Assembly: GCF_943169845.1 (NCBI RefSeq) | Contig: NZ_CALPBW010000007.1 | Coordinates: 1 to 64,000, forward strand | DNA from: Peptoniphilus rachelemmaiella | Lineage (GTDB): Bacteria > Bacillota > Clostridia > Tissierellales > Peptoniphilaceae | Direction of reading: 5' to 3' | Length of the DNA stretch: 64,000 nucleotides | Part shown: positions 227-14,158 of the stretch, piece by piece | Layout: each line of letters starts with the position of its first letter | Numbering within the stretch: position 1 is the stretch's first letter | Position numbers and translations under genes: made by a program | Notes under the pieces: generated by a model | The model's input: only the letters and a program-made list of their open reading frames with translations | Databases searched by the model: none | What the model was told of the DNA's origin: nothing

Positions 227-1873
227 TTACGAGACCCTGTCTGTCTCTAAGTGAATGATTCGATCCGCCACGGTTAAAGAGGAGGGGCGATGGCTCACCA
301 TGAGCACCGTCTTCTTCCCCGCCGTCTCTTTCAGAGACCGCAAAATCATGGCTTCATTTAAGCTGTCCAGATTTGAGGTCGGTTCATCCAAGAGCAAAAA
401 GGGTGCGTCGTGCAAGAAAGCCCTGGCCAGGCCCAAGCGTTGCCGTTCCCCCGATGAGAGGCGGCTGCCCATTTCACCGATTTTCGTGTCGTAGCCCTTC
501 GGGAGGGAAAGGACAAAATCGTGGACGGCGGCGCGGCGACAGGCCGCTTCCATTTCCTCGTCAGTCGCATCCAATCGGGCCAGACGCAGATTCGTGGCAA
601 TGGTGTCGTTAAACAAATAGGTTTCCTGGGTCATAAAACCTTCCTGCGCTCTTAAGGCGGCTGTTTCGATGTGGCGAATGTCTTCGCCGCCAATCTTCAC
701 GCAACCTTCATCCACGTCCCAAAAGCGCATGAGCAAGCGAAGAATCGTGGATTTTCCGGAACCGGATTTTCCCTGCAGGGCGAGGATTTCCCCTTTCTTC
801 ACATCCAGATTCATGCCACGTAGTATGGGAGCGCGGTCGTAGGAGAAATTCACGTCATCCAGCGCGGCGCCGGTGAAGTCTACGGAACGCCCTTTCTTTA
901 CTTCCTTTACTTTCGGTTGCTCGTCTAAAATATCCAAGACGCGATTGCCGGCGGCAAAGGTAGGCTGCAGGGTGTTGCCCAATGCGGCCAGAGCGAGCAC
1001 GGGGCCGTAAGAGGAAAGAATGTATGCCACCGACGCAAGAAGCATGACGGGATCTTCCGTGCCCCTCAGATAAATCATGCCTGCCACCACCATCAGGCCC
1101 AGGTGCAAGAGACTTAATACCAAGCCCGTTGTGGCCATGCCGAAAGCCGTTTCGTCTTTCAATCGACCGTTGGCCTCGATGCTTTCTCGACTTATGGTTT
1201 TTAATTTCTTTAAATAGATATCTTCGAAGCGGTACTGCAAAATTTCTCTCAGACTACGCAGGCCGTCTAAGACAAAGCCGCTTAATTGACCGCTGGCATT
1301 TCGCGCATCGAGACCAAGGTTTTTATTTCGCTTGGAAAGATACAAAGGCAGTGCCACGCCGACGACGGTGTAGCCAAAGGCGGCATAGAGCGCCAAGAGC
1401 GGCTCCGCCTTCGCGAGAAAGACCACGGAGAGAAGGGAGAAAATAAGTGCAATGGCTGCCGGAGAAATGGTGTGGGCGTAAAAGACTTCCAGCAATTCAA
1501 TATCGGAGGTAATCAATGTAATGAGATTGCCTTTATCTCTCCCCTCCAGTTTCGCCGGCGCCAATTCTCGCAAGGATGCAAACACCTTGCTCCGCAAAAT
1601 GGCGAGAAGTTTAAAGGCGATGTGATGATTACACAACTGCTCACCATAGCGCAAAGGACCCCGAAGAAAGCCGCAAATCAGAATGGCCGCCACCAAAGAC
1701 GGGGCAATCCACCCATCGAAATAGGCCGATGCCAAACCGTAGGCCGTTAAGGCGGAAATGGCCGTTGCCGAGAAAAAGCCCAACACGCCCAGGGTAATGG
1801 CCAGTGTCATAACCGGGGCCAGGGGCTTGACCATGCCCACGAGCCGCCCCATCACTTCCAATGGTTTACGCAT
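227..1873 (-). CDS. CydC-like ABC exporter subunit (permease-ATPase)
   Basis: Half of a heterodimeric ABC exporter of about 548 residues. The N-terminal half has about six hydrophobic segments. The C-terminal half is an ATPase with Walker A GKSGSGKST, signature LSSGERQR and Walker B FLLLDEPTSNLD. I chose the ATG at 1871-1873, which has the ribosome site GAGGAGGTGAGG directly upstream; it overlaps the stop codon of the preceding exporter gene by 8 bases, so the two are translationally coupled. The pair resembles CydDC, which in E. coli is needed for cytochrome bd assembly and has been reported to transport haem or thiols. Its place at the end of a haem-uptake operon suggests a haem- or porphyrin-related substrate, but this is inference. 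A generic drug or peptide exporter remains possible. Confidence 0.8.
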   Translation of the reverse strand: MRKPLEVMGRLVGMVKPLAPVMTLAITLGVLGFFSATAISALTAYGLASAYFDGWIAPSLVAAILICGFLRGPLRYGEQLCNHHIAFKLLAILRSKVFASLRELAPAKLEGRDKGNLITLITSDIELLEVFYAHTISPAAIALIFSLLSVVFLAKAEPLLALYAAFGYTVVGVALPLYLSKRNKNLGLDARNASGQLSGFVLDGLRSLREILQYRFEDIYLKKLKTISRESIEANGRLKDETAFGMATTGLVLSLLHLGLMVVAGMIYLRGTEDPVMLLASVAYILSSYGPVLALAALGNTLQPTFAAGNRVLDILDEQPKVKEVKKGRSVDFTGAALDDVNFSYDRAPILRGMNLDVKKGEILALQGKSGSGKSTILRLLMRFWDVDEGCVKIGGEDIRHIETAALRAQEGFMTQETYLFNDTIATNLRLARLDATDEEMEAACRRAAVHDFVLSLPKGYDTKIGEMGSRLSSGERQRLGLARAFLHDAPFLLLDEPTSNLDSLNEAMILRSLKETAGKKTVLMVSHRPSSLTVADRIIHLETDRVS

Positions 1874-3602
1874 AGACCTCACCTCCTCGGTACTGCTCAA
1901 GCTCCGCCTGTGTCTTCCACAGATCGCCATACATGCCGCCCTTTTCCAGCAATTCCTCGTGGCGGCCTTCTTCCACCAAGTGCCCCTGATTCAGAACCAA
2001 GAGCCGCCCGGCATCTTTCACATTGGCCAGACGATGGCTGATAAATAAAACCAAGCGGGTTTCGGCCAAGGCGCGAATTTCGCCCACGATTTTTTCTTCG
2101 CTTTCCACATCGATATTCGAGGTCACTTCGTCGAAGATATAAATAGGCGTGTCGTGTAAAAGGGCCATGGCGAGGCTAAGCCGCTGGCGTTGACCGCCTG
2201 AGAGATTGCTGCCGCCACTTTGAATCATCGTATCCAACCCCGCTTCCCCGGCGAAGTACTCTTTCAGGTTCACCCGATCCAAGCTGTCCCACATGGCTTC
2301 TTCCGACGCGCGAGGATTGGCCATGGCCAATAGCTCCCGTACACTTGCGCCCATTATATAGCTTTCGGCACCTAAGTAGGTCACGTTATCCAAAAGGCTT
2401 TTTTCTTTCGTTTGGGAAAGCTCCACATGGCTAAAGGCCAGAGATCCGGTGTAGCCCTTTAACTGCTTCGACAACACGGCGGCCAAAGTGGATTTCCCCG
2501 AGCCCGATGGCCCGACAATGCCCACAAGCTGCGGTCCCTTGATGTCGAAGGACAATTGATCCAGGGCTTTTTTCTCGCCGTCGTAAGACAGACTCAAGTT
2601 CTCCGCCGTCAATTCATCGGCAGCTGCCATGGACAATGTGCCGTCCTCTTCCTCTTCCAGGGCCAGAAGGTCAAACATTCTGTCCGCCGCCGCCATGCCG
2701 TTCATGGCGATGTGGAAAAAGGAGCCCAATTGACGCATGGGCAAAAAGTAATCCGCCGATAAGAGCAAGATAAACAGGGCGTCAAAAAAGTCCAACCGCC
2801 CGGCCATACAAGCCTTTAAGCAAACGACCAAGGCGATGGCTGCGCCGCCGTAGGCAACCAGGTCCATGACGATAATGGAGTTAAGCTGCATGGTTAAAAC
2901 CCGCATGGTTTGCACGCGGAAGGATTCGGCGGATTTTTCCATTTGCCTGTGGCGATAAGGATCGGTGCCGTAGATCTTTAAGGTGGTAAGGCCCTGGAGG
3001 TTTTCTAAAAACTCGTCCCCGACATCGGTGTATTCCGTCCAGTATTTGGCGAAGGTTTTTTTTGCAAAAGTCTGAATCAAGGCGATAGCCAAGGGAATCA
3101 GGGGCACGCCGATTAAAAGCACAATGGCCACGGTCCACGACATGGAACCGATGACAAAAAACAGAAAAATCGGCGCGATCATACTGTAAAAAAACTGGGG
3201 CAAATAGGCGGAAAAATAAATTTCCAATTGGTCGATGCCTTCGCCGATAATCTGTACCGCCTCCGCCGAGCGCAATCGCTCTTTGTAGTACACGCCGAAG
3301 CCCATGAGCTTTTGAAAGAGACGTGTGCGCATTTTTTCTTTCACCGAAGCAGAGGCGCCATAAGCGAGGCGCACTTCTTTTTTCGCCACGACAAAGCGCA
3401 GGAGATAAATAATCAAACTGCCGGCTACGGCAAAGGACAAGGGCTTTTGCCAAGCACTTTCCGTAAAAAACAGGCGCAAGGCGTAGACCATAAGTCCCGT
3501 CGCCAAACTATTGAGAACCAAGAGCAGGAATTTCAGCCCAACGACCTTGGCGATGGCTTTTTTCGATTCGCTGAAATAGCGGAGTAATCGCTTATCGATC
3601 AA
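1866..3602 (-). CDS. CydD-like ABC exporter subunit (permease-ATPase)
   Basis: Partner of the next gene, 578 residues. The N-terminal half has about six membrane segments. Its middle carries stretches typical of CydD-type exporters: YLPQFFYSMIAP near residue 140 and LQGLTTLKIYGT near 215. The ATPase has Walker A GPSGSGKST and signature LSGGQRQR. Walker B reads IYIFDEVTSNID, so the catalytic Glu is present but the usual Pro is Val. The start is a TTG with ribosome site AAGGAGG six bases upstream. A terminator-like hairpin separates this gene from the NEAT gene before it, so the exporter pair may be expressed at a different level from the rest of the operon. The exported substrate is unknown. 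Confidence 0.8.
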   Translation of the reverse strand: MIDKRLLRYFSESKKAIAKVVGLKFLLLVLNSLATGLMVYALRLFFTESAWQKPLSFAVAGSLIIYLLRFVVAKKEVRLAYGASASVKEKMRTRLFQKLMGFGVYYKERLRSAEAVQIIGEGIDQLEIYFSAYLPQFFYSMIAPIFLFFVIGSMSWTVAIVLLIGVPLIPLAIALIQTFAKKTFAKYWTEYTDVGDEFLENLQGLTTLKIYGTDPYRHRQMEKSAESFRVQTMRVLTMQLNSIIVMDLVAYGGAAIALVVCLKACMAGRLDFFDALFILLLSADYFLPMRQLGSFFHIAMNGMAAADRMFDLLALEEEEDGTLSMAAADELTAENLSLSYDGEKKALDQLSFDIKGPQLVGIVGPSGSGKSTLAAVLSKQLKGYTGSLAFSHVELSQTKEKSLLDNVTYLGAESYIMGASVRELLAMANPRASEEAMWDSLDRVNLKEYFAGEAGLDTMIQSGGSNLSGGQRQRLSLAMALLHDTPIYIFDEVTSNIDVESEEKIVGEIRALAETRLVLFISHRLANVKDAGRLLVLNQGHLVEEGRHEELLEKGGMYGDLWKTQAELEQYRGGEVYA

Positions 3603-3658: not shown

Positions 3659-4516
3659 CTATTTTTGAATAATGACTTGGCGATTGGCTCCGTTCCAGTC
3701 CACTTTGGCACCGGAAAGTTCGCCGATGGCGCGAATGGGCACCATGGTGCGGCCGTTTTGAATCATGGCGGCTACATCGATGGCTGTTTTCTTGCCGTCT
3801 GCACGGACAATGGTCTTCGATCCGATGACCAGCTTCATGCTGCTTGCGCCTTCGCCGACGGTAACCGTGCGGGTCTTTTGATCCCAGCCTACTTTCAGGC
3901 CCAGGGCTTCGGAGATAAAGCGTACGGGCACCATGGTGCGACCGTCTTTAATAAATGCCGGGCTGTCTGTTTTGACTTCCTTGCCGTTGACCAAAATGGT
4001 AATGGCGTTTTTGTTGGCTTTCGGTGCAGCGGGAGCCTTTTTCGATTCGGCGCCTTGAATCATTTTTGCTTGAGACCAATCGAAAACCAGGCGCGCCTTT
4101 TGTTCGCCGGCACCGGGGGTGCCACCTTGCATTTGATCCATGACATCCACCCATACAGCGACGTCTACGAGATTATCTTTTCCGCTTCGCACAAAGCTGA
4201 AGCTCTTCGTGTATTCCCCTTTGCCTGCGCCTTTGACCGCTTCTTCACGGCCCGGGGCGGTAACAAAGAGATTGGTTAAATTCCCTTCTTGATTCATAAA
4301 ATTCAGGGGCTTGACATACACTTTATAGGTGAACTTGCCCCCTTCTTCCTTCACTTCCGCAACGGGAGAAAGGGCTTTGTTGGCCATGGATTCTTTTTCG
4401 GCTGTGGCGTGTTTTAATGCCACGGGGACTTCATAGGTTTTGCTCGATTCGGCGCGGGCCACATTAGGTGCCAGTAAGCATACAAGGGCCAGGGCCAGGG
4501 ATAAGAATTTTTTCAT
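3659..4516 (-). CDS. Secreted NEAT-domain protein with copper-amine-oxidase-type stalk
   Basis: 285 residues with a signal peptide (about 1-22). A NEAT haem-binding domain (about 25-150) is followed by two copies of the Cu-amine-oxidase N1-like stalk motif (about 167-285, with GRTMVPVRFISEALG and GRTMVPIRAIGEL). The NEAT domain carries SMANKAL (Met44) and VWVDVM (Met126), the two positions that in Shp-type domains supply methionine haem ligands. It has no SLH or LPXTG anchor, so it may be a soluble haem carrier or be held by the stalk domain. It starts at an ATG with AAGGAG upstream, 11 bases after the preceding NEAT-SLH gene. Haem binding is inferred from the family. Confidence 0.85.
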   Translation of the reverse strand: MKKFLSLALALVCLLAPNVARAESSKTYEVPVALKHATAEKESMANKALSPVAEVKEEGGKFTYKVYVKPLNFMNQEGNLTNLFVTAPGREEAVKGAGKGEYTKSFSFVRSGKDNLVDVAVWVDVMDQMQGGTPGAGEQKARLVFDWSQAKMIQGAESKKAPAAPKANKNAITILVNGKEVKTDSPAFIKDGRTMVPVRFISEALGLKVGWDQKTRTVTVGEGASSMKLVIGSKTIVRADGKKTAIDVAAMIQNGRTMVPIRAIGELSGAKVDWNGANRQVIIQK

Positions 4517-4527
4517 CGTCGTTCTCC

Positions 4528-6840
4528 TTATTTCATATCTTTGGTATCAATGGTGTACAACACTTGTGCGGCTTGGGCGCGGCTGAAACTTTCCTTCGGT
4601 GCAAAATTGCCGTTGCCCATGCCGTTCAAGAGACCTTGGCGGGTCATCTTCTCGACAGAATCCTTCGCCCAGGAAGAAATCTTTGTTCCGTCATGGAACT
4701 GTCCTTTCGCTGCGGAGGCGTACGCTTTTTTCTCATGGCTCAGGAATTTATCTAAGATCACGGCCATTTCTTCGCGGGTGATGGTGCGGTTCGGCTCAAA
4801 TTTGCCGCCGCCTGTGCCCTGAATCATGCCGGCAGATGCGGCCCAAGCCACATAGGGGGCGTAATACGCATCGCCCTTTACATCCTTAAAGGCTGTGGAT
4901 GCGCCGGAAGGCGTGATGCCTGCTTTTCTTCCGAGAATCGTGACAAATTCTGCGCGGGTGATGGCGCGGTTCGGTGCGAAGCGGCCTTCCCCTTCTCCTT
5001 TAAAGTAGCCGCGGGCCACGCTGTGGGCGATGGCATTGAGGGCCCAGTGATCGGCGCCGATATCCTTGAATTGCGTCAAAACAGCGTTGCGTTCTGTTTC
5101 ACTTTTCGCCTTGAGGGCTTCTTTTTTCTTTTCTTCAGCGGACTTCTGCTCTTCTTTTTTCTTGTCTTCCGTTTTTTGCTCTTCTACCTGTTTTTCAGGC
5201 GTCTTCACTTCACCATCTATGCGGCGCGTTTCTCTGGCGCTGTTCCAGTCAAATTGCAGATAGGCATCTTGTTCCCCTTTACCGGGGCCACCTTGAATTT
5301 TGTCCATGACATCCACCCATAGGGCGATTTTTTGGGATTGCACTTTGTCATTGAGCGTAAAGGACCAGAGGCCGTCGCCGTGATAGGATGCGCGGCGTTT
5401 CCCGCCGTCGTAGTAAAAGAGATTGGTCAGGCGGCCTTCCATATTGTTCATCTTCATGGGCTTAAATTGAACATAGTAGGTGTAGCGGCCGTTGTAGACA
5501 TCCACGGTGGCAGAGGAGCTCAAGGCGGAAGATGCCATGGACTTGCCGCCACCGACTTTGGTCAATGCCACAGGGAGTTCGTAGCGCAGGGTTTGACCCT
5601 TTTTCTTTTCGTCCTTCTTGTCGAGGGGATTTTCATCCTTGGGCTTGTCTTTGTTTTCATCCTTGGGGACTTCCTTTTGTTTGAGTTCGCCGTGCCAGCT
5701 GTAAATGGCCGCTTCCAGTTCCCGAACGCGCCCTTTCGTCAGCTTGTCGCCTTCAATTTCTTTCTCCGCCGTTTGCAAAAGATCCTTTAATTCCTTTTGC
5801 GATTTTTCCGTATAGGAAGAGGGATCGACTTTTTTCTTTTGATCGATCAGTGCCTTCAAATTGCCTATATCCATCTTATCGGCAGGCTTGGAGTTTCCCA
5901 TAAAGAGGGCAAAGGCTTCGCCTGCTTTTTTCAGATCTTCATCTTTTTTATCCGTAGCTTTTAATAGAGCGGCATTTTCATCGAGATTCTTTTTCAGTGC
6001 TCCTTTATCGGCAAGCTTTGTATCCTTTAACTCCGAGGCAACGGTTAAAAATCCTTCGTAAACTTTTTTAGCCGTATCGTCCATGCCCTTTGTTTTTTCA
6101 CCGAGGGCGAGGAGGAAGTTCAGTTCACTAACTTTTAAAGTGAGGTCTTCTTCCTTGGCCGATGCATCTTGTAAAAGGGCATCTGCTGCACTTGCGGTGG
6201 CATTGAGTGCCATTGCTACGTCACCGTCCCAGCCGTTTTTGTCCTCGCCATTGGCTTTTTTAACGGCTTCGTCCAAGGCTTTTTTCGCCTTTTCAAGGGC
6301 CGTTTCTTCCTTGGGTTTTTGTCCGGGTGTTTCCGGCTCCTGCGATGCCTCGCCTTTTATTTCCTTGTACTTCGAAATTTCGAGGAAAGCTTCCTTTTCT
6401 TTTCCCTCCATGACAGTAATGGCAAATGCCAGCTTAATCGGATTCTCAGGTTTTGAATCAAGGGTAAAGGACCAGTCATTTCCCTTTTGTTGAGTCTCAG
6501 ACTTAGTTCCATCCTTGTAGTAGTAAAACTTACCAATGAATTGACTGGATTCCGGTTTTATCGAAATGGTAAATGTCCACTTACCATCCTTTTCCACAGC
6601 CGTTATTTTCTCTATATGGTCCTGAGCCATGGATTTATTACCCGGGCTGTCAGCCCTCTTTAATTTCCAGTCCAAATCATAATGCTTTTCCTTTGCCGCA
6701 GCTTGTTCTCCGTCGGCAAAAGGTTGTGCGTAAATACCTTGGGGCATTTCCGGTGCCTTGGCCAATACATTAATCGGCGCCGCTAAAAAACCGGCACTCA
6801 TCATGGCCGCCATGGCCAAACTTGTCGAACGAATTTTCAT
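4528..6840 (-). CDS. Cell-wall haem-binding protein: two NEAT domains and SLH anchor
   Basis: 770 residues. The start chosen is the ATG at 6838-6840 (MKIRSTSLAMAAMM, a clear signal peptide), whose ATGA overlaps the flavodoxin stop; the longer open frame upstream is only read-through of that gene. Order: signal peptide (1-29); a NEAT-like domain (about 35-165, Met71 in KSMAQ and Met144 in TVMEG); a helical Lys/Glu-rich spacer (about 170-405); a second NEAT domain (about 415-540, Met435 in KSMASSAL and Met512 in WVDVMDKIQ); a charged coiled-coil linker; and three SLH repeats (about 590-770). SLH repeats bind secondary wall polymer, so this is probably a wall-anchored haem relay placed between the distal receptors and the membrane proteins. 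Confidence 0.88.
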   Translation of the reverse strand: MKIRSTSLAMAAMMSAGFLAAPINVLAKAPEMPQGIYAQPFADGEQAAAKEKHYDLDWKLKRADSPGNKSMAQDHIEKITAVEKDGKWTFTISIKPESSQFIGKFYYYKDGTKSETQQKGNDWSFTLDSKPENPIKLAFAITVMEGKEKEAFLEISKYKEIKGEASQEPETPGQKPKEETALEKAKKALDEAVKKANGEDKNGWDGDVAMALNATASAADALLQDASAKEEDLTLKVSELNFLLALGEKTKGMDDTAKKVYEGFLTVASELKDTKLADKGALKKNLDENAALLKATDKKDEDLKKAGEAFALFMGNSKPADKMDIGNLKALIDQKKKVDPSSYTEKSQKELKDLLQTAEKEIEGDKLTKGRVRELEAAIYSWHGELKQKEVPKDENKDKPKDENPLDKKDEKKKGQTLRYELPVALTKVGGGKSMASSALSSSATVDVYNGRYTYYVQFKPMKMNNMEGRLTNLFYYDGGKRRASYHGDGLWSFTLNDKVQSQKIALWVDVMDKIQGGPGKGEQDAYLQFDWNSARETRRIDGEVKTPEKQVEEQKTEDKKKEEQKSAEEKKKEALKAKSETERNAVLTQFKDIGADHWALNAIAHSVARGYFKGEGEGRFAPNRAITRAEFVTILGRKAGITPSGASTAFKDVKGDAYYAPYVAWAASAGMIQGTGGGKFEPNRTITREEMAVILDKFLSHEKKAYASAAKGQFHDGTKISSWAKDSVEKMTRQGLLNGMGNGNFAPKESFSRAQAAQVLYTIDTKDMK

Positions 6841-7352
6841 CGAATACCTCCTTTTTCCAATTGTTCTGTGAAATACATTGCCGCTTCCTTCAGCTCCTCT
6901 TCCGTCGCCTCTCTGGATTTTTCCGATGCCTCTTTCATTTGCTCCCTGGCATCCTTCGGCACAAAGACGAGCAAATCGATGCGGGCGGCCAATTTTTCGT
7001 CTACTTTCCCGGGACACAAATAGGTTCCCAAGCTTTCTTTCTTGTGATCGGCGAGGCATTTCTCGAGGCCTTCCATGGCCCGCGCCCCGTGTTCGGAATC
7101 GGGCATGGCGCCCATGGTTAAAAAGAGACCTGTTTTTTTCGGCGCGCGATCCAAGATTTTCATCACCGCCTTATCGGGCAAGGCGCGATCGCACCATCCG
7201 CCGAGAAGGCCGTAGTCGTAGGCCGACAGATCCGGCTTGTCCTTCAGATCCAAAAGGGTCAAATCCCGATTTTCTTTCAGCGCGTCGTAAAGATACTCCG
7301 CCATGCGCTTTGTGTTTCCCGTCTTCGACGAGTAGGCTATAAATCCTTTCAT
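6837..7352 (-). CDS. Flavodoxin-like protein (Flavodoxin_3/BilS type)
   Basis: 171 residues, cytoplasmic, no signal. The N-terminus MKGFIAYSSKTGNTKRMAE contains the FMN-phosphate loop SSKTGNT. The middle (YDYGLLGGWCDRALPDK, FLTMGAMPDSEHG, GTYLCPGKVDEKL) matches my memory of the Flavodoxin_3 family, which includes BilS, the electron-transfer partner of bilirubin reductase. The ATG follows the ATPase stop directly (TAGATG) and the stop overlaps the next start, so it belongs to the haem operon. A role in supplying electrons for release or anaerobic breakdown of haem is likely. No radical-SAM haem lyase, haem oxygenase or BilR is in the window. HemG-type protoporphyrinogen oxidase is another flavodoxin-like possibility. 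Confidence 0.8.
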   Translation of the reverse strand: MKGFIAYSSKTGNTKRMAEYLYDALKENRDLTLLDLKDKPDLSAYDYGLLGGWCDRALPDKAVMKILDRAPKKTGLFLTMGAMPDSEHGARAMEGLEKCLADHKKESLGTYLCPGKVDEKLAARIDLLVFVPKDAREQMKEASEKSREATEEELKEAAMYFTEQLEKGGIR

Positions 7353-8120
7353 CTAATCCTCCTTGGGTTTTACAATGGACGCGCCGCCGACCTCGATCAA
7401 TTCCAGCTCCGTGCCGTAGAGTTTGCTGATGACGCGACTGTTCAGCACCTCCTTGGGATCGCCTTGGTAGACGATTTTACCGTGGTACATGCCGATGACT
7501 TCGTGGGAATAATTAATGGCCTGCATAATATCGTGGAGCACCATGACGATGGTGGTGTTGCGCTCTTCGTTGATTTTTTTCACCAAACGCAATATTTCCA
7601 GCTGATACTTAATGTCCAAATAAGTGGTGGGCTCGTCCAGCAAAAGAATATCGGAGCATTGGGCCAAAGCCATGGCGATAAACACCCGCTGCTTTTGCCC
7701 GCCGGAGAGGGTTCTGATTTCTCTCTGCCCCAATTCCGTGATGCCGGTCATTTCCATGGCCCGTTCGATTTCTTCCATGTCCTCTGCGGAATATTTCTGC
7801 AGGGGTTTTAAGTAGGGATTTCTGCCGTAGGAAACGTAGTCTTTCACCTTTAAATCGCCGATGATGCGATTTTGTTGATGGACGATGCCAAGCTCGCGGG
7901 CATAGTCTTTCGGCGGATAGGAGAAAATATCTTTTCCGTGCAAAAGCACCCGGCCGCGGCTCGGCTTCATTTGGCGGCTCAGTATTTTCAATAGCGTGGA
8001 TTTTCCCGAGCCGTTGGCCCCCATTAAGGTGGTAATGGCGCCGGGTGTCACTTTTAAATTGAGCTTGTTTAAAATCAAATGGCCCTTGGTATAGGCGTAG
8101 CTTAGGTTTTTAATCTCCAT
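7353..8120 (-). CDS. Haem/iron-complex ABC importer ATPase (FecE/HmuV type)
   Basis: 255 residues. Walker A GANGSGKST (near residue 34), signature LSGGQKQR (near 138), Walker B DILLLDEPTTYLD and a switch His in VLHD are all present. Length and motifs fit the ATPase of the FecCD/BtuCD importer class. Its ATG overlaps the permease stop by 11 bases. With the two genes before it, it forms a complete importer, probably for haem given the surrounding NEAT proteins, though siderophore uptake uses the same fold. Confidence 0.9.
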   Translation of the reverse strand: MEIKNLSYAYTKGHLILNKLNLKVTPGAITTLMGANGSGKSTLLKILSRQMKPSRGRVLLHGKDIFSYPPKDYARELGIVHQQNRIIGDLKVKDYVSYGRNPYLKPLQKYSAEDMEEIERAMEMTGITELGQREIRTLSGGQKQRVFIAMALAQCSDILLLDEPTTYLDIKYQLEILRLVKKINEERNTTIVMVLHDIMQAINYSHEVIGMYHGKIVYQGDPKEVLNSRVISKLYGTELELIEVGGASIVKPKED

Positions 8121-9126
8121 AGTTTTCGCCTCCCAGTTTCAACAATGCGATAAAGAAGGGCCCGCCGAAGACAGCCATGATCACCGCCGCCGGTATTTCG
8201 TAGGGATAGGCCGCGATGCGCCCCACCGTGTCCGACAGAAGCAAGACCAAACTGCCCAGGAGCATATTAAAGGGCAAGAGGTATTTGTGATCGCCGCCGA
8301 CGAGAACCCGGCCGATGTGGGGCACGATCAGGCCCAAAAAGCCGATGACGCCCGCTACCGCCGTGGTGACGGAGGCTAAAATAATGGCGATTAACGCCAC
8401 GATAAAGCGATCGCGATCCACGCGTACGCCCAGGGCGCGAGCGGTTTTGTCTTCCAGACTCAATAAATTCAACGAGCGGATGGTAAACAGCGCCGCCACT
8501 AAAAAGATAATGACGTAAAGGCAGAGAATGTGCACATCGCTCCAAGTTTTTTGCGCCACATTGCCTTCGATAATGGCCTGGGTGGCGCTTAAATTTCGCC
8601 CCATAACGGATTTAATGCCTTCGCCGATGCCGATAAAAGTCATGTTCAAGGCCACGCCCACGAGAATTAATCGCGTGGGCCGCACGCCGCCGTCCCATGC
8701 CAGGGTGTAGATCAAAAAGTAGGCGAAAAGACCGCCGGCGATGGAGAACAGAGGCGAGAAGCCCAAAAGGGCAGGCGACAGGGCCAGCACCATGGAGTTT
8801 ACGAAGTTTGCCGCTGCAGAAATGCCGATGATCCCGGGATCCGTTAAGGGATTTTTCATCACCGCCTGCAAAAGGGTGCCCGATGTGGCCAGGGCCGCAC
8901 CGGCTAAAATGGCGATAAAGACCCGCGGGAAGCGCAAATCGTAAATCCGCGCCACATCTCCGTCATAGGAGAAGAATAGACCGCGCAAAATTTGTCCCAC
9001 GCCTAATTTTAATGAGCCCTCCGTCAGGGAGAAGAAAAAGACCACGACCAGGAGGACGGCGACGGCGGCGAAGGAAATCCATCGCCTGCGTACTTTTTGT
9101 TTTAATTCGTCAGTTCCCTTGTCCAT
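8110..9126 (-). CDS. Haem/iron-complex ABC importer permease (FecCD family)
   Basis: 338 residues, strongly hydrophobic, about 9-10 transmembrane helices. Typical FecCD/BtuC stretches include PRVFIAILAGAALATSGTLLQ (near residue 70), NPLTDPGIIGISAAA and GLIVPHIGRVLVGGDHK, the last being the coupling region that contacts the ATPase. Its start overlaps the end of the substrate-binding lipoprotein gene by 17 bases. It probably acts as a homodimer, passing haem delivered by that lipoprotein. Confidence 0.92.
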   Translation of the reverse strand: MDKGTDELKQKVRRRWISFAAVAVLLVVVFFFSLTEGSLKLGVGQILRGLFFSYDGDVARIYDLRFPRVFIAILAGAALATSGTLLQAVMKNPLTDPGIIGISAAANFVNSMVLALSPALLGFSPLFSIAGGLFAYFLIYTLAWDGGVRPTRLILVGVALNMTFIGIGEGIKSVMGRNLSATQAIIEGNVAQKTWSDVHILCLYVIIFLVAALFTIRSLNLLSLEDKTARALGVRVDRDRFIVALIAIILASVTTAVAGVIGFLGLIVPHIGRVLVGGDHKYLLPFNMLLGSLVLLLSDTVGRIAAYPYEIPAAVIMAVFGGPFFIALLKLGGENYGD

Positions 9127-9994
9127 AAAACACCTTTTCTAAATCTCCCAGTGCCTCTTTGTAGGAAAAATTGGCACTCATACCAAATATCTTCGTATTA
9201 AGGTCATACACTTTATTTTCTTTTACGGCTCGGAAATGTTTCCAGACGTCGTTGTTTTTAAATTCATCTTGAAACATTTGATGCACCTTGTCGGGCATGG
9301 CGTGTGCCGTTCTGAGAATAATGTCCGGATCTTTTTCCAGCATATCTTCCGTATTGACCGTTAAAAATTGCTGATCGTCATCGGGGTAGACATTCTCTCC
9401 CCCGGCCAGCTTCACTAAACTGCCTGCATAAGACTTGTCCGTCGCCACCACATAGGACCCGGGAAGGCCCATGAGAATCAACACTTTGGGCGCGGGCCCC
9501 TTGTTTCGCGATTTAAAGTCCTTCATGAACTCCTCGTAATCTTTTACGAGGGCCGCCGCTTCTTTCTCCCGATTTAAAAGACGGCCCATGTCCTCGATGG
9601 AGCGATACATCCCCGGCACATTGGATAAATTCAAAAAACCGAAGTGAATGCCCGCCGCCTTATACTTCGGCAAGAGGTCGGGCATAAGGCTCGCCGGAGA
9701 AAAGACGTAGTCCGGGTTCATGGATGCTATTTTTTCCATATCCGGATTCATGGCCATGCCGATGGTGGGCAAGTTGGCGTATCGCGCCGGCGGCGATTCC
9801 AATTGCGATTCCGCAATGGCGACGAGATCCACATCCAGCTTGTCCATGATGTCGGCACAAGCCGCCGATGTAGTGATGATGCGGGCGTGGTCGCCGTCGA
9901 TGCGCTTTTCAGGTTTCGCCTTTTGATTGACACAGCCTGCCAGGAAAAAGAGAGCGAGGGCGACACTAAAAATCTTCAAAACTGAAGTCTTCAT
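9110..9994 (-). CDS. Haem/iron-complex substrate-binding lipoprotein
   Basis: 294 residues with a lipoprotein signal ending LFFLAGC (Cys about residue 20). Two ATGs are close together (10000 and 9994). The second is better spaced from GAGG and is chosen; the first would add Met-Thr. The body fits a class III periplasmic-binding protein of the BtuF/FecB type: ARIITTSAACADIMDKL in the first lobe, the segment NPDYVFSPASL, and GGENVYPDDDQQ. It overlaps the NEAT membrane-protein gene by 29 bases and the permease by 17. Probable role: accept haem from the Shp-like protein, as HtsA does in streptococci. Confidence 0.88.
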   Translation of the reverse strand: MKTSVLKIFSVALALFFLAGCVNQKAKPEKRIDGDHARIITTSAACADIMDKLDVDLVAIAESQLESPPARYANLPTIGMAMNPDMEKIASMNPDYVFSPASLMPDLLPKYKAAGIHFGFLNLSNVPGMYRSIEDMGRLLNREKEAAALVKDYEEFMKDFKSRNKGPAPKVLILMGLPGSYVVATDKSYAGSLVKLAGGENVYPDDDQQFLTVNTEDMLEKDPDIILRTAHAMPDKVHQMFQDEFKNNDVWKHFRAVKENKVYDLNTKIFGMSANFSYKEALGDLEKVFYGQGN

Positions 9995-10943
9995 CGTCAT
10001 CTTCCTCTCTTAATTCATTGAGCAGGCGCTTTTTCTGTGCCAAAACATAGAACAGGCCGCCGGCCGCCAGGGCGCCGCAAGTCACAAAGACCAAAATCGC
10101 CATCATGGATGCAAAAACAATCCGCGTCGCAGGCCCCCAAGGGGCTTTTTTCTTTGGCGTCTCGGTTTTGTCGCCTTTGGCAGCTTCGCCATTTTCAAGG
10201 GATTGTATCTCCGGCGAATCTTCCGTTAAAAGACCGTGTTCGTAACCGATGTCGCTTTCCGTATCGCCAAGGCCCGACGCGCCGCCGTGGGTGAGGGCAT
10301 CTTTATCGGCACTCCCTCCTTCTTGGGGCGGACTCTTCGGCGAAGAAGCGGGGGTTTTTGATGCCGAAGCCGCCGGTGCCGCTGCGTCCACTTTTGTCTT
10401 GGCGGGCGCTCCGCTTTTCGCCGGTGCCGCTTTTTGAGGCGCCTGCTTTGGCGCCGCCGCGCCTTGGGACAAAACGAAATCCGTATTGCCCGGCGTCATG
10501 TTTCCCATGTCGCCGTAAAAAATTACTTCGCGGCCCATTGCGTCGATAAACAGACTCAGGCGAATCACGCATTCCTTCGCCGGCAGTTGAAAGCGAAAAT
10601 CTTTCCATTCGCCGCCGCCTTGTGGCGAATCGTAGGATACATTGCTAAAGCCGCTTGCGCCGCGTTTTTCCGCGGCGATGCTTACTTTCGACACATTGTC
10701 CATCATGTGCAGGCGAATGGTTAACATCCGCTTGCCGCCCACTTCCTCGTAAAGGGCCTGGGGATCCAACACGCCTTCCGCCATGCCTTGGCCGATGCCT
10801 TCATTCTTTCCCGAATCTTCAATGGCCCCGGTGATCGGGTGGCGATAGGAAGCGTGCATGTCCACAATGGAAGGGCCTTCGGCAAAACTGATGTTAGGCA
10901 CCAGAAGAAAGATCGCCAAAAGAAGAGACAATAGCTTTTTCAT
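9966..10943 (-). CDS. Membrane-anchored single-NEAT protein (Shp-like haem relay)
   Basis: 325 residues: signal peptide (1-21), one NEAT domain (about 26-160), an Ala/Pro/Lys-rich extracellular stalk (about 160-270), one transmembrane helix (about 278-305) and a short acidic cytoplasmic tail ending EDDDEDFSFEDF. The NEAT domain has Met54 (GQGMAEGVL) and Met136 (LFIDAMG), matching the two axial methionines known in Streptococcus Shp. Layout and place just before the HtsABC-like importer are also those of Shp. Its ATGA overlaps the stop of the preceding double-NEAT gene. Predicted to hand haem directly to the binding lipoprotein. Confidence 0.87.
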   Translation of the reverse strand: MKKLLSLLLAIFLLVPNISFAEGPSIVDMHASYRHPITGAIEDSGKNEGIGQGMAEGVLDPQALYEEVGGKRMLTIRLHMMDNVSKVSIAAEKRGASGFSNVSYDSPQGGGEWKDFRFQLPAKECVIRLSLFIDAMGREVIFYGDMGNMTPGNTDFVLSQGAAAPKQAPQKAAPAKSGAPAKTKVDAAAPAASASKTPASSPKSPPQEGGSADKDALTHGGASGLGDTESDIGYEHGLLTEDSPEIQSLENGEAAKGDKTETPKKKAPWGPATRIVFASMMAILVFVTCGALAAGGLFYVLAQKKRLLNELREEDDDEDFSFEDF

Positions 10944-12775
10944 TGCGCTTCCCTCTCCCTTTCCGCTTCATAGATCACTTCGTCCATATACATGCGGTAA
11001 TACTTTCTCGTCATGTACGCGCCGCCGCCTAATGCGGCGAAGATAACCGTCAAACAAAAAATAATCAGACCCGGCCTCTCTTTCTCTTGTAATTCTTCTT
11101 CGTTCACGGGCGCCTTGGGGATGGATTCCCGGTCCGCGATCCCCGTGCCTTCGTCATAGCTGCCTTCTTCGAAAGACGGCGCCTCCCCGTCCGCCGGCGT
11201 ATCGTCAGGCGTCGACGGACTCACATTGGTGGGCTCACTCGTCGATGTTGTAGGCGATGAAGCGTTCAATGTTACAGGCTTCGTCCCCTGACTTTTCGGC
11301 GTCTTCACGGCCTTCACCTTCGCAGGCGGTTTAATCTTTAAGCCGCCGTTTGCGACGGGCTTTGCCGCGGTTTTCGCAGTTTTAATAAAGAAGGTGCCCA
11401 AGCTTTTTGTTTCAAAGTGAATGCTTCCCTCTTTTATTTTTGAGGTCAGTTTCTCTCCTTTTTCGTCGTAAATCTCCGCCACGGTACCTTGGAAGGGAAT
11501 GGCTACCGCCACGGGCTTTTGCGGCGAAAGATTTGTTCCCAAGGCTTGTACCGATCCCTTGTAATCTTTCGGAATCCTTTCAATGGGCCTTCGACAAGAA
11601 AGGTTGTAAGCCTTTGTGCCCGCAGGAAGATTGAGCTTCCCGAGAGCGGTTTGAAGATCCCGCCCCACAAGACCGTTGGCGTAAAATTCAAATGCTTCGC
11701 CAAAGCCTCCTGCCGGCACGGAGAGCACCACGCCTTTGTCTGCATAGCTGTGGGCCTCTGTAAAAGACGGTGCCTTCGGCCCCACCTCCGCCCGATGGGC
11801 CAAGGTGTGCTCGTCGGCCTGGATTTTTTTTACGCTTTGAAAATCCAATTTCAAGCGGGCATTTAAAGGCTCGTCACCCATCGGCGCCACTTTCGGATCC
11901 ACCTTCAGGCGAATCGTGTCTTTTTTCACATCCAGAGGCATGGCAAAGATACTCGGACGCGGCAATGGCTCTTTCTCCGGTTGCAGATCGTAGCAAAGAG
12001 GTCGTGCCGCGGAAAATCCGTCGTCGGTTTCGTAAAACACGCGGCTGAGTGATGCCTGTATATTCGAAACTTTCAAGGCCTTCGTCCCTAAAAACAAGGT
12101 TCCTTTGCCGTCTTTTACTAAAAGCTCCGCCTTGGGATCCAGAGCGCCGTTGCCCATGGACGGCTTGTCTTCCGTTTCGTGCCACAAAGCAACATCGAGG
12201 GAGTAGAGGCCGTCCTCTACATCTAAAGGCGACGACGTGGCTCCGGGCACATCAGAAGGCGGCGTTTTTTTCGCCGCAGGCTCCGCCTTTTCGCTGCCCT
12301 TATTTGGCCAGTCGACTTTTAAGCGGGCTTCCTGTTCGCCGAAGCCCATTTCTCCCATAACCGGCACGTAAAACTTCAAGTCGTAGATGGCGCGATTGGG
12401 ATCCACGGAAAAGGTGACGCTCTTCGGATAAAGCTTGCCCTTCACCCGCGGGTCGCTGCCCTTTTTCGGGTCGTTGTAGCTATCGTAATCCTTGTAATAG
12501 TCCACCACCTGAACGCCACGACCATCTACGGTGACTTCGCCTAAATAGCCGCGGGCGCCCATAAAGTCTAAGGGCAAAAATTCCAAGGTGAGCAGGCGTT
12601 CATTGCCCTTTTCAATCCATTTCGCCTCCGGCTTTAATGCCTTTTGCGCCATGGAAGGGGCGTTTTCTGTTTTCTTTAACAGCATCACTTTCGCTGTGCC
12701 ACCGCCCGCCCATGCGCCGCCGGGAATAAGTAAAACGGCGAGGACAAGCAGAAGTATGAATTTATATCGTTTCAT
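10940..12775 (-). CDS. Membrane-anchored double-NEAT haem receptor
   Basis: 611 residues: signal peptide (1-23); NEAT 1 (about 26-158, Met42 in PSMAQKAL and Met140 in YVPVMGEM); NEAT 2 (about 188-318, Met207 in PSMGNGAL and Met299 in KVAPMGDE); a region of about 130 residues without an assigned fold; a Thr/Pro/Ser-rich stalk; one membrane helix (about 570-590); and a basic/acidic tail. Because it is tethered to the membrane rather than to the wall, it probably shuttles haem between SLH-anchored proteins and the Shp-like protein. ATG start; 19 bases separate it from the DUF454 gene. Confidence 0.85.
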   Translation of the reverse strand: MKRYKFILLLVLAVLLIPGGAWAGGGTAKVMLLKKTENAPSMAQKALKPEAKWIEKGNERLLTLEFLPLDFMGARGYLGEVTVDGRGVQVVDYYKDYDSYNDPKKGSDPRVKGKLYPKSVTFSVDPNRAIYDLKFYVPVMGEMGFGEQEARLKVDWPNKGSEKAEPAAKKTPPSDVPGATSSPLDVEDGLYSLDVALWHETEDKPSMGNGALDPKAELLVKDGKGTLFLGTKALKVSNIQASLSRVFYETDDGFSAARPLCYDLQPEKEPLPRPSIFAMPLDVKKDTIRLKVDPKVAPMGDEPLNARLKLDFQSVKKIQADEHTLAHRAEVGPKAPSFTEAHSYADKGVVLSVPAGGFGEAFEFYANGLVGRDLQTALGKLNLPAGTKAYNLSCRRPIERIPKDYKGSVQALGTNLSPQKPVAVAIPFQGTVAEIYDEKGEKLTSKIKEGSIHFETKSLGTFFIKTAKTAAKPVANGGLKIKPPAKVKAVKTPKSQGTKPVTLNASSPTTSTSEPTNVSPSTPDDTPADGEAPSFEEGSYDEGTGIADRESIPKAPVNEEELQEKERPGLIIFCLTVIFAALGGGAYMTRKYYRMYMDEVIYEAEREREAQ

Positions 12776-12794: not shown

Positions 12795-13172
12795 CTATTC
12801 CTCTGCAGTTGCCTCAGCTTGCGTGGGTATGCGCTTCAGGAAAATATAGTAGTGGAGCGCCAGTACGAAGACGATGGCCATGCGGGCGTGTTTCACGGGA
12901 ATCACGAAAAAGCAAATGGCCAGAAGCAAAGTAATGAGTGCGAGCACTTTATACTTTTTCTCTTTCGTCATGCCCTTGCCTTCCAACAGGGGCGCCACAT
13001 TGTTTTGATACAGAGGCAATTGGGTGAGCCATGTGTGAAATTTTTCCGAGCCCCGCGCAAAACATGCCGCCGCCAAAATCAGAAAGGGCGTGGTAGGCAG
13101 CACCGGCAAATACACGCCGATGAGGCCGATTCCCGTAAAGAGAAAGCCCAGAATCATAAATACTATTTTCAA
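12795..13172 (-). CDS. DUF454 (YbaN-type) small membrane protein
   Basis: 125 residues with two N-terminal and two C-terminal hydrophobic segments. The stretch GLIGVYLPVLPTTPFLILAA followed by CFARGSEKFHTWL is the hallmark of the DUF454/YbaN family, whose biochemical role is not established. The start is a TTG with AAAGGAG upstream. It sits between the regulator and the double-NEAT gene with 16 and 19 base gaps, so it is part of the haem operon. In other bacteria DUF454 genes are also found near haem genes, as I recall, but I cannot test that here. Confidence 0.85.
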   Translation of the reverse strand: MKIVFMILGFLFTGIGLIGVYLPVLPTTPFLILAAACFARGSEKFHTWLTQLPLYQNNVAPLLEGKGMTKEKKYKVLALITLLLAICFFVIPVKHARMAIVFVLALHYYIFLKRIPTQAEATAEE

Positions 13173-13188: not shown

Positions 13189-14022
13189 CTAACACTGTGC
13201 AAGATTTAAAACCAAAAGATAATTCGCCTCGGCCCGGTGGCCGGAAAAGTTCACCGCCGCATGGGAGCGGAACCAGGTGTAAGACAACAGGACGCCGCCA
13301 CCTAAATAGGTCCACTCGCCGAAAACATCCAGAGGGATTTCCACTTGCCGATCCTTAAAGGGAATGGCATGGCTTTCGCCGTCTTTTTGGTAAACCAACT
13401 CTTTCACCGCACCGTGTTTCATATGCCCTTTGTGTTCTTTTTTCAGAGAACGGGTGGCAAACACCACATGGGGCGATGCGTCGATGACCAGATCCGCCTT
13501 GTGTTCAAAGACCTTGTTGGCCATGGAAGGGCGAATCGCCGCTTCATTTTCGTCGATGTGTTGTTGGAAAATAGTGAGATACACAGGATAAGTCTTCTTT
13601 TCCAAAATGTGAAGAAGAAATTCCCCGGGCACCTTCTGCCCCGGCTCCGGCAAATGTTCGAATAACTTCGATTTTTGCAACAGGAAGCAGGCGATGCAAT
13701 CCTCTCCCTTGCCGATAAGCTGCGAGGAGAAGCTCGTGGCCCGATCTTCTTCAAGGCCGAAAATGCCTTGCATGGTTAGGGCAAGCAATTGCTTTTCCCG
13801 CTCCAATTTATCTTTAATCAACATGCCGATTTCGGTGACGTAGTAATCATTTTTTTGTTTGTATAAAATCCCGGCCTTAACCATTCGGTCCAGCATTTTC
13901 TTTGCATTGGGCCGAGAACACGCAAAGATTTGACTTAAGTCGATAATCGTGCGACTCGGGTGCTCTTCGGTAAAGCACAGTAGATATTTTTGTTGTTGTT
14001 CTGTTAAATGTAAATCCGTCAT
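13189..14022 (-). CDS. Transcription regulator: DtxR-like winged helix fused to a NEAT-like domain
   Basis: 277 residues, no signal peptide or membrane segment. Residues 5-65 form a winged helix (TIIDLSQIFACSRPNAKKML helix-turn-helix, then DYYVTEIG wing). Residues 66-120 resemble the helical dimerisation part of DtxR/MntR regulators and contain Cys109-x-x-Cys112. Residues 143-277 look like a NEAT domain: YPVYLTIFQQ strand, RPSMANKVF (Met167 at the first haem-ligand position), AEANYLLVLNL final strand. Where other NEATs here have the second Met (VDVM), this protein has FRSH, with His254 within one residue. A cytoplasmic NEAT domain attached to a DNA-binding domain suggests a haem-sensing regulator of this operon. 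The NEAT call is by eye and should be tested by structure prediction. Confidence 0.75.
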   Translation of the reverse strand: MTDLHLTEQQQKYLLCFTEEHPSRTIIDLSQIFACSRPNAKKMLDRMVKAGILYKQKNDYYVTEIGMLIKDKLEREKQLLALTMQGIFGLEEDRATSFSSQLIGKGEDCIACFLLQKSKLFEHLPEPGQKVPGEFLLHILEKKTYPVYLTIFQQHIDENEAAIRPSMANKVFEHKADLVIDASPHVVFATRSLKKEHKGHMKHGAVKELVYQKDGESHAIPFKDRQVEIPLDVFGEWTYLGGGVLLSYTWFRSHAAVNFSGHRAEANYLLVLNLAQC

Positions 14023-14047
14023 AGCGTCATCCTTCCAATGAAATTAT

Positions 14048-14062
14048 TGATACGCTTTATCA
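14048..14062. promoter_or_regulatory. 15-bp dyad, candidate iron/haem operator
   Basis: TGATA-CGCTT-TATCA is a perfect inverted repeat. It overlaps the predicted -10 element of the regulator operon. The spacing equals the 7-1-7 Fur box (TGATAATNATTATCA), and similar dyads stand at 27030-27044 and 59473-59487. Confidence 0.55.
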
Positions 14063-14085
14063 TTGCATACACATTTTCATTGTAA
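14057..14085 (-). promoter_or_regulatory. Candidate promoter of the regulator/haem-uptake operon
   Basis: On the minus strand TTACAA (14080-14085) and TGATAA (14057-14062) are 17 bases apart, 35 bases before the regulator ATG. The -10 overlaps the dyad operator, and further TCATTG half-sites surround it. Confidence 0.45.
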
Positions 14086-14127
14086 GTTTTTATTGCCCGG
14101 CATGCAATCATTTTTTAATCATGGAAT

Positions 14128-14151
14128 GGGATGCGGAATCATCCGCACCCC
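14128..14151 (-). repeat. 10-bp inverted repeat after the NEAT subtilase gene
   Basis: GGGATGCGGA and TCCGCACCC(C) form a stable hairpin 8 bases after the stop codon. No T-run follows on the minus strand, so it may stabilise the 3' end or cause only partial termination, letting transcripts continue into the regulator operon. Confidence 0.45.
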
Positions 14152-14158
14152 TCCACAA

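Follow-up and report, generated by a model that had tools for sequence, protein, structure and literature searches.

The available sections of two reviews (PMC11442138, PMC12670364) treat NEAT domains as part of surface receptors and carriers, and the haem sensors named there belong to the MarR (PefR and HsmR), TetR (HrtR, HatR and FhtR), Fur (Irr) and LysR (HbrL) families or are two-component systems (HssRS, ChrSA and HrrSA), besides HemP/HmuP; the word DtxR does not occur in either review. Here we describe a protein in which a NEAT-fold domain appears to be joined to a DtxR-type winged helix in the cytoplasm. A fold with which related bacteria bind haem at the cell exterior thus appears to serve here in the cytoplasm, and it is probable that the protein measures haem and controls the adjoining genes for haem uptake.

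The gene was found at 13189..14022 on the minus strand of the window, by which we mean the whole stretch of 64,000 nucleotides of Peptoniphilus rachelemmaiella DNA that was analysed, and it was delimited by its open reading frame, its translation and full-length homologues. It is the first gene of its minus-strand run and is preceded by a gap of 136 bases (14023-14158). As pointed out in the initial annotation, made from the sequence alone, the 277-residue translation contains Cys109 and Cys112, the motif RPSMANKVF with Met167, F251-R-S-H254 and the strand AEANYLLVL, and it carries no signal peptide when read by eye, given that in both the sequence and the AlphaFold2 model the N-terminus is directly the winged helix. 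Searches of the whole protein against Pfam and NCBIfam gave weak winged-helix matches only, and with phmmer against PDB sequences the sole match was ScaR (E 0.13). The AlphaFold2 model of the full regulator, computed from an alignment of 23 family members, reached a pLDDT of 86.6 and a pTM of 0.71.

The genes downstream of the regulator lie on one strand with short gaps or overlaps, and the regulator gene does stand, as had been proposed, at the head of a haem-uptake operon with genes for NEAT, Shp, IsdE, FecCD and ATPase proteins. This minus-strand run encodes a DUF454 membrane protein (12795..13172, Pfam E 6.9e-33), a NEAT surface protein (10940..12775, Pfam NEAT E 8e-11), the haem-binding protein Shp (9966..10943, Pfam HemeBinding_Shp E 1.4e-44), the haem-binding lipoprotein IsdE (9110..10000, TIGR03659 E 7.5e-109, above the cut-off), a FecCD-type permease (8110..9126, Pfam E 1.5e-81), the ABC ATPase of the haem importer (7353..8120, Pfam ABC_tran E 1.7e-34), a flavodoxin (6837..7352, Pfam Flavodoxin_3 E 3.9e-27), a NEAT-SLH surface protein (4528..7059, Pfam SLH and NEAT), a protein with NEAT and copper-amine-oxidase-N domains (3659..4516, Pfam) and an ABC pair of two genes with the exporter-type fold (227..3602, Pfam ABC_membrane and ABC_tran). 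The first start of the NEAT-SLH reading frame is inside the flavodoxin gene, and its true start is probably later. The flavodoxin (6837-7352, minus strand) has 13 matches in the other loci compared and a BilS match below the cut-off; it may supply electrons for the breakdown or reduction of haem.

Upstream of the regulator, also on the minus strand, there is a gene (14159-20449) for a surface protein of 2096 residues with subtilase (S8), FIVAR and SLH domains and a NEAT match below the cut-off at residues 1624-1695, which may be a protease by which haem is released from haemoglobin. A further gene, at 20486-26989 (minus strand), encodes an SLH protein of 2167 residues that combines LRRs and a NEAT domain with a Shr-like haemoglobin-interacting domain.

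The C-terminal domain was examined through its predicted structure. Residues 134-277 were modelled alone with AlphaFold2, template-free and from an alignment of family members only, without extracellular NEAT sequences, giving a pLDDT of 85.2 and a pTM of 0.80. When this model was submitted to a VIA comparison, which took in 999 of the chains returned by Foldseek, rows 1-43 of the 50 listed were NEAT or Shp structures, the best being IsdX2 NEAT5 (Z 12.0 over 109 residues, 2.5 A) and the lowest of the 43 being Shp (Z 7.0), whereas the next row had a Z of 5.4. Foldseek itself gave nothing at E <= 0.001 and no NEAT match below E 0.1 for this model, its third row being IsdB NEAT1 (E 0.12, prob 0.87). 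DtxR and IdeR carry an SH3/FeoA domain. An FeoA/SH3 fold, the alternative against which the initial annotation had asked for the fold to be checked, was rejected for the C-terminal domain because the VIA comparison returned the NEAT fold, which agrees with the NEAT hallmarks first noticed in the sequence (RPSMANKVF with Met167, and AEANYLLVL).

Profile comparisons point the same way. A profile of 28 C-terminal domains matched a profile built from 54 extracellular NEAT domains encoded in those loci at 95.8% (E 7.8e-9, positions 6-99 of 147), and the subsets did so at 89.0% (23 close domains) and 92.8% (5 distant domains), whereas for the controls, namely six other families, a reversed profile and the N-terminal part of the regulator, the values did not exceed 2.7%. 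The Shp set, which was among these six families, reached 0.5%, though Shp shares the fold at Z 7.0. Against PDB sequences, four of the six matches listed for the 28-row profile were NEAT-bearing (IsdX1 and the streptococcal haemoprotein receptor among them, E 0.011-0.53), with one non-NEAT protein (E 0.24) ranked between them, and the profile of the close family only had no NEAT protein among its 5 matches. Pfam gave zero matches to the window's own C-terminal domain. Among relatives, 6 of the 11 distant or divergent regulators matched Pfam NEAT in the right place but below the cut-off of 32.8 bits, the highest score being 31.6 bits (E 2.4e-7), and no match was seen in L080, L116, L118, L119 and L120; of the 23 close relatives, 2 matched it below the cut-off, the better of them at E 0.0025. 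The assignment thus rests on the VIA second look and on the profiles of relatives, and these sequence comparisons and models support residues 134-277 being a cytoplasmic NEAT-fold domain, of which residues 142-275 (13198..13599, minus strand) were delimited from the model, VIA and the profile comparison as the presumed haem sensor.

The fusion of repressor and NEAT domain exists as first described, given the single 277-residue reading frame, the two modelled folds and the full-length homologues with both domains, which occur in 22 of the 130 family genomes; 4 further genomes of the 130 gave matches to plain MntR proteins only. A search at the level of the order (249 genomes) returned full-length regulators in the same 22 genomes, and a search of the class with a broader profile found them in 12 of 391 drawn genomes, of which 8 are from other families, and in addition one fragment that lies at the edge of a contig. 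At the level of the phylum they were found in 4 of 299 drawn genomes, two of which (G710 and G822) belong to classes other than that of the window, and nearly all other matches in these searches covered the N-terminal part only and resembled plain DtxR/MntR-type proteins. The survey for the same fusion that had been suggested at the outset therefore yields 34 distinct regulators from ten families of the phylum, counted as the window, 22 loci of named genomes, and two further sets of 5 and 6, with duplicate gene copies uncounted and without L008 and L024-L027, which are MntR proteins matching the N-terminal part only (L011 was omitted from A1, and the row of L036 was read from a non-start codon). 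The named relatives belong to Aedoeadaptatus, Peptoniphilus and Urinicoccus, with two MAGs besides; A. pacaensis is the closest of them, at 96% identity in the regulator.

A tree was built from the NEAT domains of 33 regulators (L120 omitted) and 30 extracellular ones drawn randomly from the 54. One branch, with a support of 100/99, split the two kinds, the root being arbitrary and long branches, L119 among them, being flagged. This split fits one fusion event. Of the earlier idea that the cell reuses its own haem-carrier fold, the NEAT fold has stood, and a recent copying of the operon's carrier domain seems unlikely, since the regulator domains all lie on one side of the branch.

The regulator also travels with haem-uptake genes. 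NEAT and/or Shp genes are beside it in 32 of the 34 cases, including all ten distant loci (L076-L080, L114-L116, L118 and L119), and among the 22 loci of named genomes the NEAT gene is directly next in 20 and Shp-IsdE-FecCD is present in 18. The exceptions to this layout are L035, L039, L041 and L042, with the haem operon absent beside the regulator in L039 and the ABC pair only in L041. Nine Peptoniphilus loci (L040, L043-L049 and L051) share the order DUF454, ABC pair, regulator, NEAT, Shp, IsdE, FecCD, ATPase and flavodoxin. Across the 130 family genomes, a Shp match was found in 21 of the 22 with the regulator and in 8 of the 108 others (Fisher p 1e-16, uncorrected for kinship, with G075, below the family cut-off, included among the 29 Shp genomes). 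In L121, where a Shp operon occurs without a DtxR-NEAT gene, a gene for a PRD/Mga-type regulator follows that operon (13583-15148).

In the gap upstream of the regulator we identified an inverted repeat, TGATA-N5-TATCA (14048..14062), which ends 25 bases before the start codon and was picked out by its conservation in five Aedoeadaptatus-group loci and by the locus scan. In the window's genus, alignment of the gaps placed the repeat upstream of the regulator; Peptoniphilus has it at two places, between the regulator and the NEAT gene and before the ABC pair. The presence of the ABC pair in the window's run and of the same repeat before it in Peptoniphilus suggests that the pair cooperates with uptake or assimilation rather than opposing it as an exporter. 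The arms of the repeat are constant while its spacer varies between groups, one spacer being common to five close species.

A scan of all 5-base arms with gaps of 0-11 in 20 loci ranked TGATA-N5-TATCA first, in 18 of the 20, against 6 of 20 for the runner-up; the two loci without an exact site in the gap (L038 and L045) have there a site with one mismatch. Exact sites numbered 27 in the 7,781 regulatory bases of 21 loci (21 kb only being taken from the window) and 0 in the other 418,500 bases, a contrast for which the regulatory stretches were picked by gene position after the motif had been sighted, so that the all-arm scan serves as its control, and in which many of the 21 loci are closely related. 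Eighteen of the 27 lie in the scanned gaps and the rest upstream of the ABC pair, in 9 of 14 loci. L035, L039 and L120 stood outside both counts. L035 and L039, which have no full haem operon, lack the exact repeat, as do L038 and the ten distant loci, where operator-like sites were indistinguishable from shuffled sequence; L120 has one exact site before DUF454. Within the window there are 4 sites with at most one mismatch (1 of them exact) against 1.00 expected, a number reached in 2 of 100 shuffles. The whole genome of the window (G000) has 8 exact sites, of which 7 lie elsewhere, whereas a control pattern has 4, and the motif alone is thus unspecific. No promoter is claimed, since the promoter scan gave a single promoter-like site, within a coding region, against 1.0 expected. 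One of the exact sites of G000, at C27:9462 (L131), is a perfect Fur-type box (TGATAATTATTATCA) and precedes a methyltransferase-like gene and one that resembles a gene for an iron-type substrate-binding protein, the genes being read by eye.

We read TGATA-N5-TATCA as the putative operator of the DtxR-NEAT regulator, with Fur as a serious rival. According to that rival the regulator is a DtxR-NEAT protein but the repeat is a Fur box, so that iron sets the expression of the operon through Fur while DtxR-NEAT acts elsewhere or only modulates, an arrangement compatible with haem sensing. The arms of the repeat are those of the Fur 7-1-7 consensus, to which the window's repeat conforms at 11 of 14 positions (p ~0.015 against shuffles), as does that of L030; G000 encodes two Fur-family proteins, and one of its 8 exact sites, that at C27:9462, is a perfect Fur box near what appears by eye to be an iron-type substrate-binding protein. 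The available part of a study of Clostridium perfringens likewise describes a NEAT locus with a Fur box and regulation by iron (PMC5026354). Against it, the 27 sites agree with the four inner Fur positions in 39 of 108 instances, which is roughly the level of A+T-rich DNA, and each of the six sites of the window's genus does so at 1 of 4. Moreover, neither motif rose above the shuffled level in five regions of L121-L123, three of the 8 Shp genomes without the regulator, whose Shp operons lack the repeat, and L041, a locus devoid of the haem genes, still has the repeat before the ABC pair and the regulator. We regard control by Fur as unlikely, yet as the alternative to be taken most seriously.

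The haem ligands predicted for the NEAT-fold domain differ in part from those first suggested. Met167, the lip-helix candidate (codon 13522..13524, minus strand), is Met in 32 of the 34 regulators, and His262 (codon 13237..13239, minus strand) is His in 32 of 34 and lies at the start of the last strand, which spans residues 260-273 in both AlphaFold2 models. The initial annotation had placed the second ligand at His254 of FRSH; that residue was rejected as a conserved ligand, being His in 4 of 34 regulators, and His262 is the likelier one. Tyr211 is kept in 34 of 34, and no Tyr ligand is evident in the C-terminal domain. Shp is a precedent for Met-type haem ligation, and the axial pair of IsdB is Met362/Tyr440. 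The classical axial Tyr of IsdA, IsdB-N2, IsdC and IsdH-N3 would fall at residue 260 of the regulator, which precedes His262 by two positions and shares its face; this placement is rough, being taken ungapped from the ends of the VIA ranges. In the available part of a structural account, Ser361, Met362, Tyr440 and Tyr444 of IsdB are at the haem (PMC6901573). From residue conservation, Met167 and His262 are the likely haem ligands. A second copy of the regulator in Urinicoccus massiliensis (L039), distant from haem genes, keeps both putative ligands.

The NEAT-fold pocket could instead sense an iron-free porphyrin, another tetrapyrrole or a haem breakdown product, or nothing in some lineages. 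Such a reading would accommodate the operon-linked regulator L050 (Urinicoccus massiliensis), which has neither Met nor His, as well as the flavodoxin of the run, which might serve haem breakdown; the Met is also missing from L120 and the His from L119. The retention of each of the two residues in 32 of 34 regulators would be easier to reconcile with ligation of haem iron than with a ring that lacks iron, and we find a ligand other than haem quite improbable.

The N-terminal part (residues 1-123; 13654..14022, minus strand) has the DtxR/MntR fold, in agreement with the winged helix and dimer region described at first. Residues 5-124 of the model aligned in VIA over 113 residues with 2h09, of the DtxR/MntR fold (Z 13.3), and Foldseek matched this part to DtxR, IdeR and MntR (E 1.8e-5 to IdeR). 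The metal site, by contrast with that of the plain MntR proteins compared, which keep the Glu-His pair and His77, as does the tandem partner gene of L080, is largely lost: among 23 close members the Glu of the MntR Glu-His metal pair is found in 0 and the His in 2, the position of MntR His77 is His in 0, and that of MntR Glu11 is Glu in 6. Both sequence and model support a DtxR/MntR-type winged helix and dimerisation region whose metal site has decayed. Because the metal ligands are mostly gone while Met167 and His262 are conserved, the metal switch appears to have decayed and the conserved two-residue site to lie in the NEAT part. The Cys109-x-x-Cys112 pair of the initial annotation is present in the window's protein, but it was rejected as a conserved site, Cys occurring in 4 of 23 rows at each position with the window's row counted.

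L080 (9832-10626) and L116 (8806-9678) each have a second DtxR-type gene in tandem with the DtxR-NEAT gene, matching Fe_dep_repr_C at E 6.8e-12 and 4.2e-10, respectively. Both have a C-terminal part of their own without the SMA motif, the second gene of L080 keeps the metal residues, and the two are perhaps metal-sensing partners.

The recognition-helix region of the winged helix bears on a further alternative, in which haem is bound by the NEAT domain of a protein that works as a chaperone or buffer for haem in the cytoplasm and uses the winged helix for dimerisation only. NEAT domains elsewhere do hand haem on, according to the available sections of the reviews (PMC12670364, PMC11442138), but the recognition-helix region keeps Cys35, Asn39 and Lys41 in all 23 of the 23 close members, and the inverted repeat tracks with the regulator gene, which leaves such a role very unlikely. 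That the protein is an ordinary metalloregulator of the DtxR kind whose C-terminal domain has diverged, for which the DtxR/MntR fold of residues 5-124 would speak, is scarcely credible given that the metal ligands are mostly missing and that the C-terminal domain compares with NEAT.

On the whole, it is likely that the protein is a one-component haem sensor and that DtxR-NEAT autoregulates haem uptake. Sequence comparison and modelling support the fold, the fusion, its conservation, its linkage to haem-uptake genes, the decay of the metal site and the tracking of the repeat with the gene, and we infer haem as the ligand, Met167 and His262 as its ligating residues, DNA binding and autoregulation. 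In the mechanism that we propose, imported haem would bind in the NEAT pocket between Met167 of the lip helix and His262 at the start of the last strand, and its binding would change how the two winged helices of the dimer are placed. That dimer would bind TGATA-N5-TATCA at 14048-14062 and control both the operon and its own gene, and a protein bound there could block transcription. Because the operon serves uptake, we favour repression by the haem-bound form, with uptake opening when cytoplasmic haem is low, as a guess a little better than even; haem-induced release is the alternative direction, possible but doubtful.

A broader reading, which we consider somewhat more likely than not, is that these proteins form a widespread and as yet undescribed class of intracellular haem sensors that arose by an ancient fusion of NEAT and DtxR, after which the metal site decayed, so that a metal switch was replaced by a Met/His haem switch controlling the NEAT-Shp-Isd uptake operons of many bacteria of the phylum. 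If this is true, the pairing of a cytoplasmic NEAT domain with a DtxR scaffold would represent a sensor of new design and would show how bacteria with Shp-type uptake hold haem within limits. The regulator, its ligand residues and its operator are here predicted together, and DtxR-NEAT might double as a genetically encoded haem sensor.

Among the literature matches listed, mostly open-access and without preprints, there was no DtxR-NEAT protein or other NEAT-containing regulator. As far as the literature was searched, the role of a haem-responsive one-component regulator is known, and the sensor domain and its pairing with this DNA-binding region, as predicted from sequence, would be new. The proposed role, haem-responsive control of haem homeostasis, is the same as that of the known haem-responsive regulators, none of which is described with a NEAT domain in the available sections of the two reviews (PMC11442138, PMC12670364); there, the named MarR and TetR sensors control efflux, and HemP/HmuP acts on uptake operons but is small and a different kind of protein. 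The NEAT loci under Fur control (isd and cht) are alike in cargo genes and have similar operator arms, but they are described, in the accessible part of the source, as controlled by iron through a Fur box (PMC5026354), whereas a dedicated regulator is encoded in the run described here. With the NEAT domains of IsdA, IsdB-N2, IsdC, IsdH-N3, IsdX1/IsdX2, Hal and Shp the regulator shares the fold, the Ser-Met-Ala lip motif and the layout of strands, but its domain is cytoplasmic, has no export signal, is joined to a DNA-binding region, falls on a separate branch of the tree and has, by rough placement, a near-invariant His262 near the place of the classical axial Tyr. With DtxR, MntR and IdeR it has the winged helix and the dimer helices in common; the metal ligands of these proteins have been lost in the regulator, and a NEAT fold stands in place of the SH3/FeoA domain of DtxR and IdeR.
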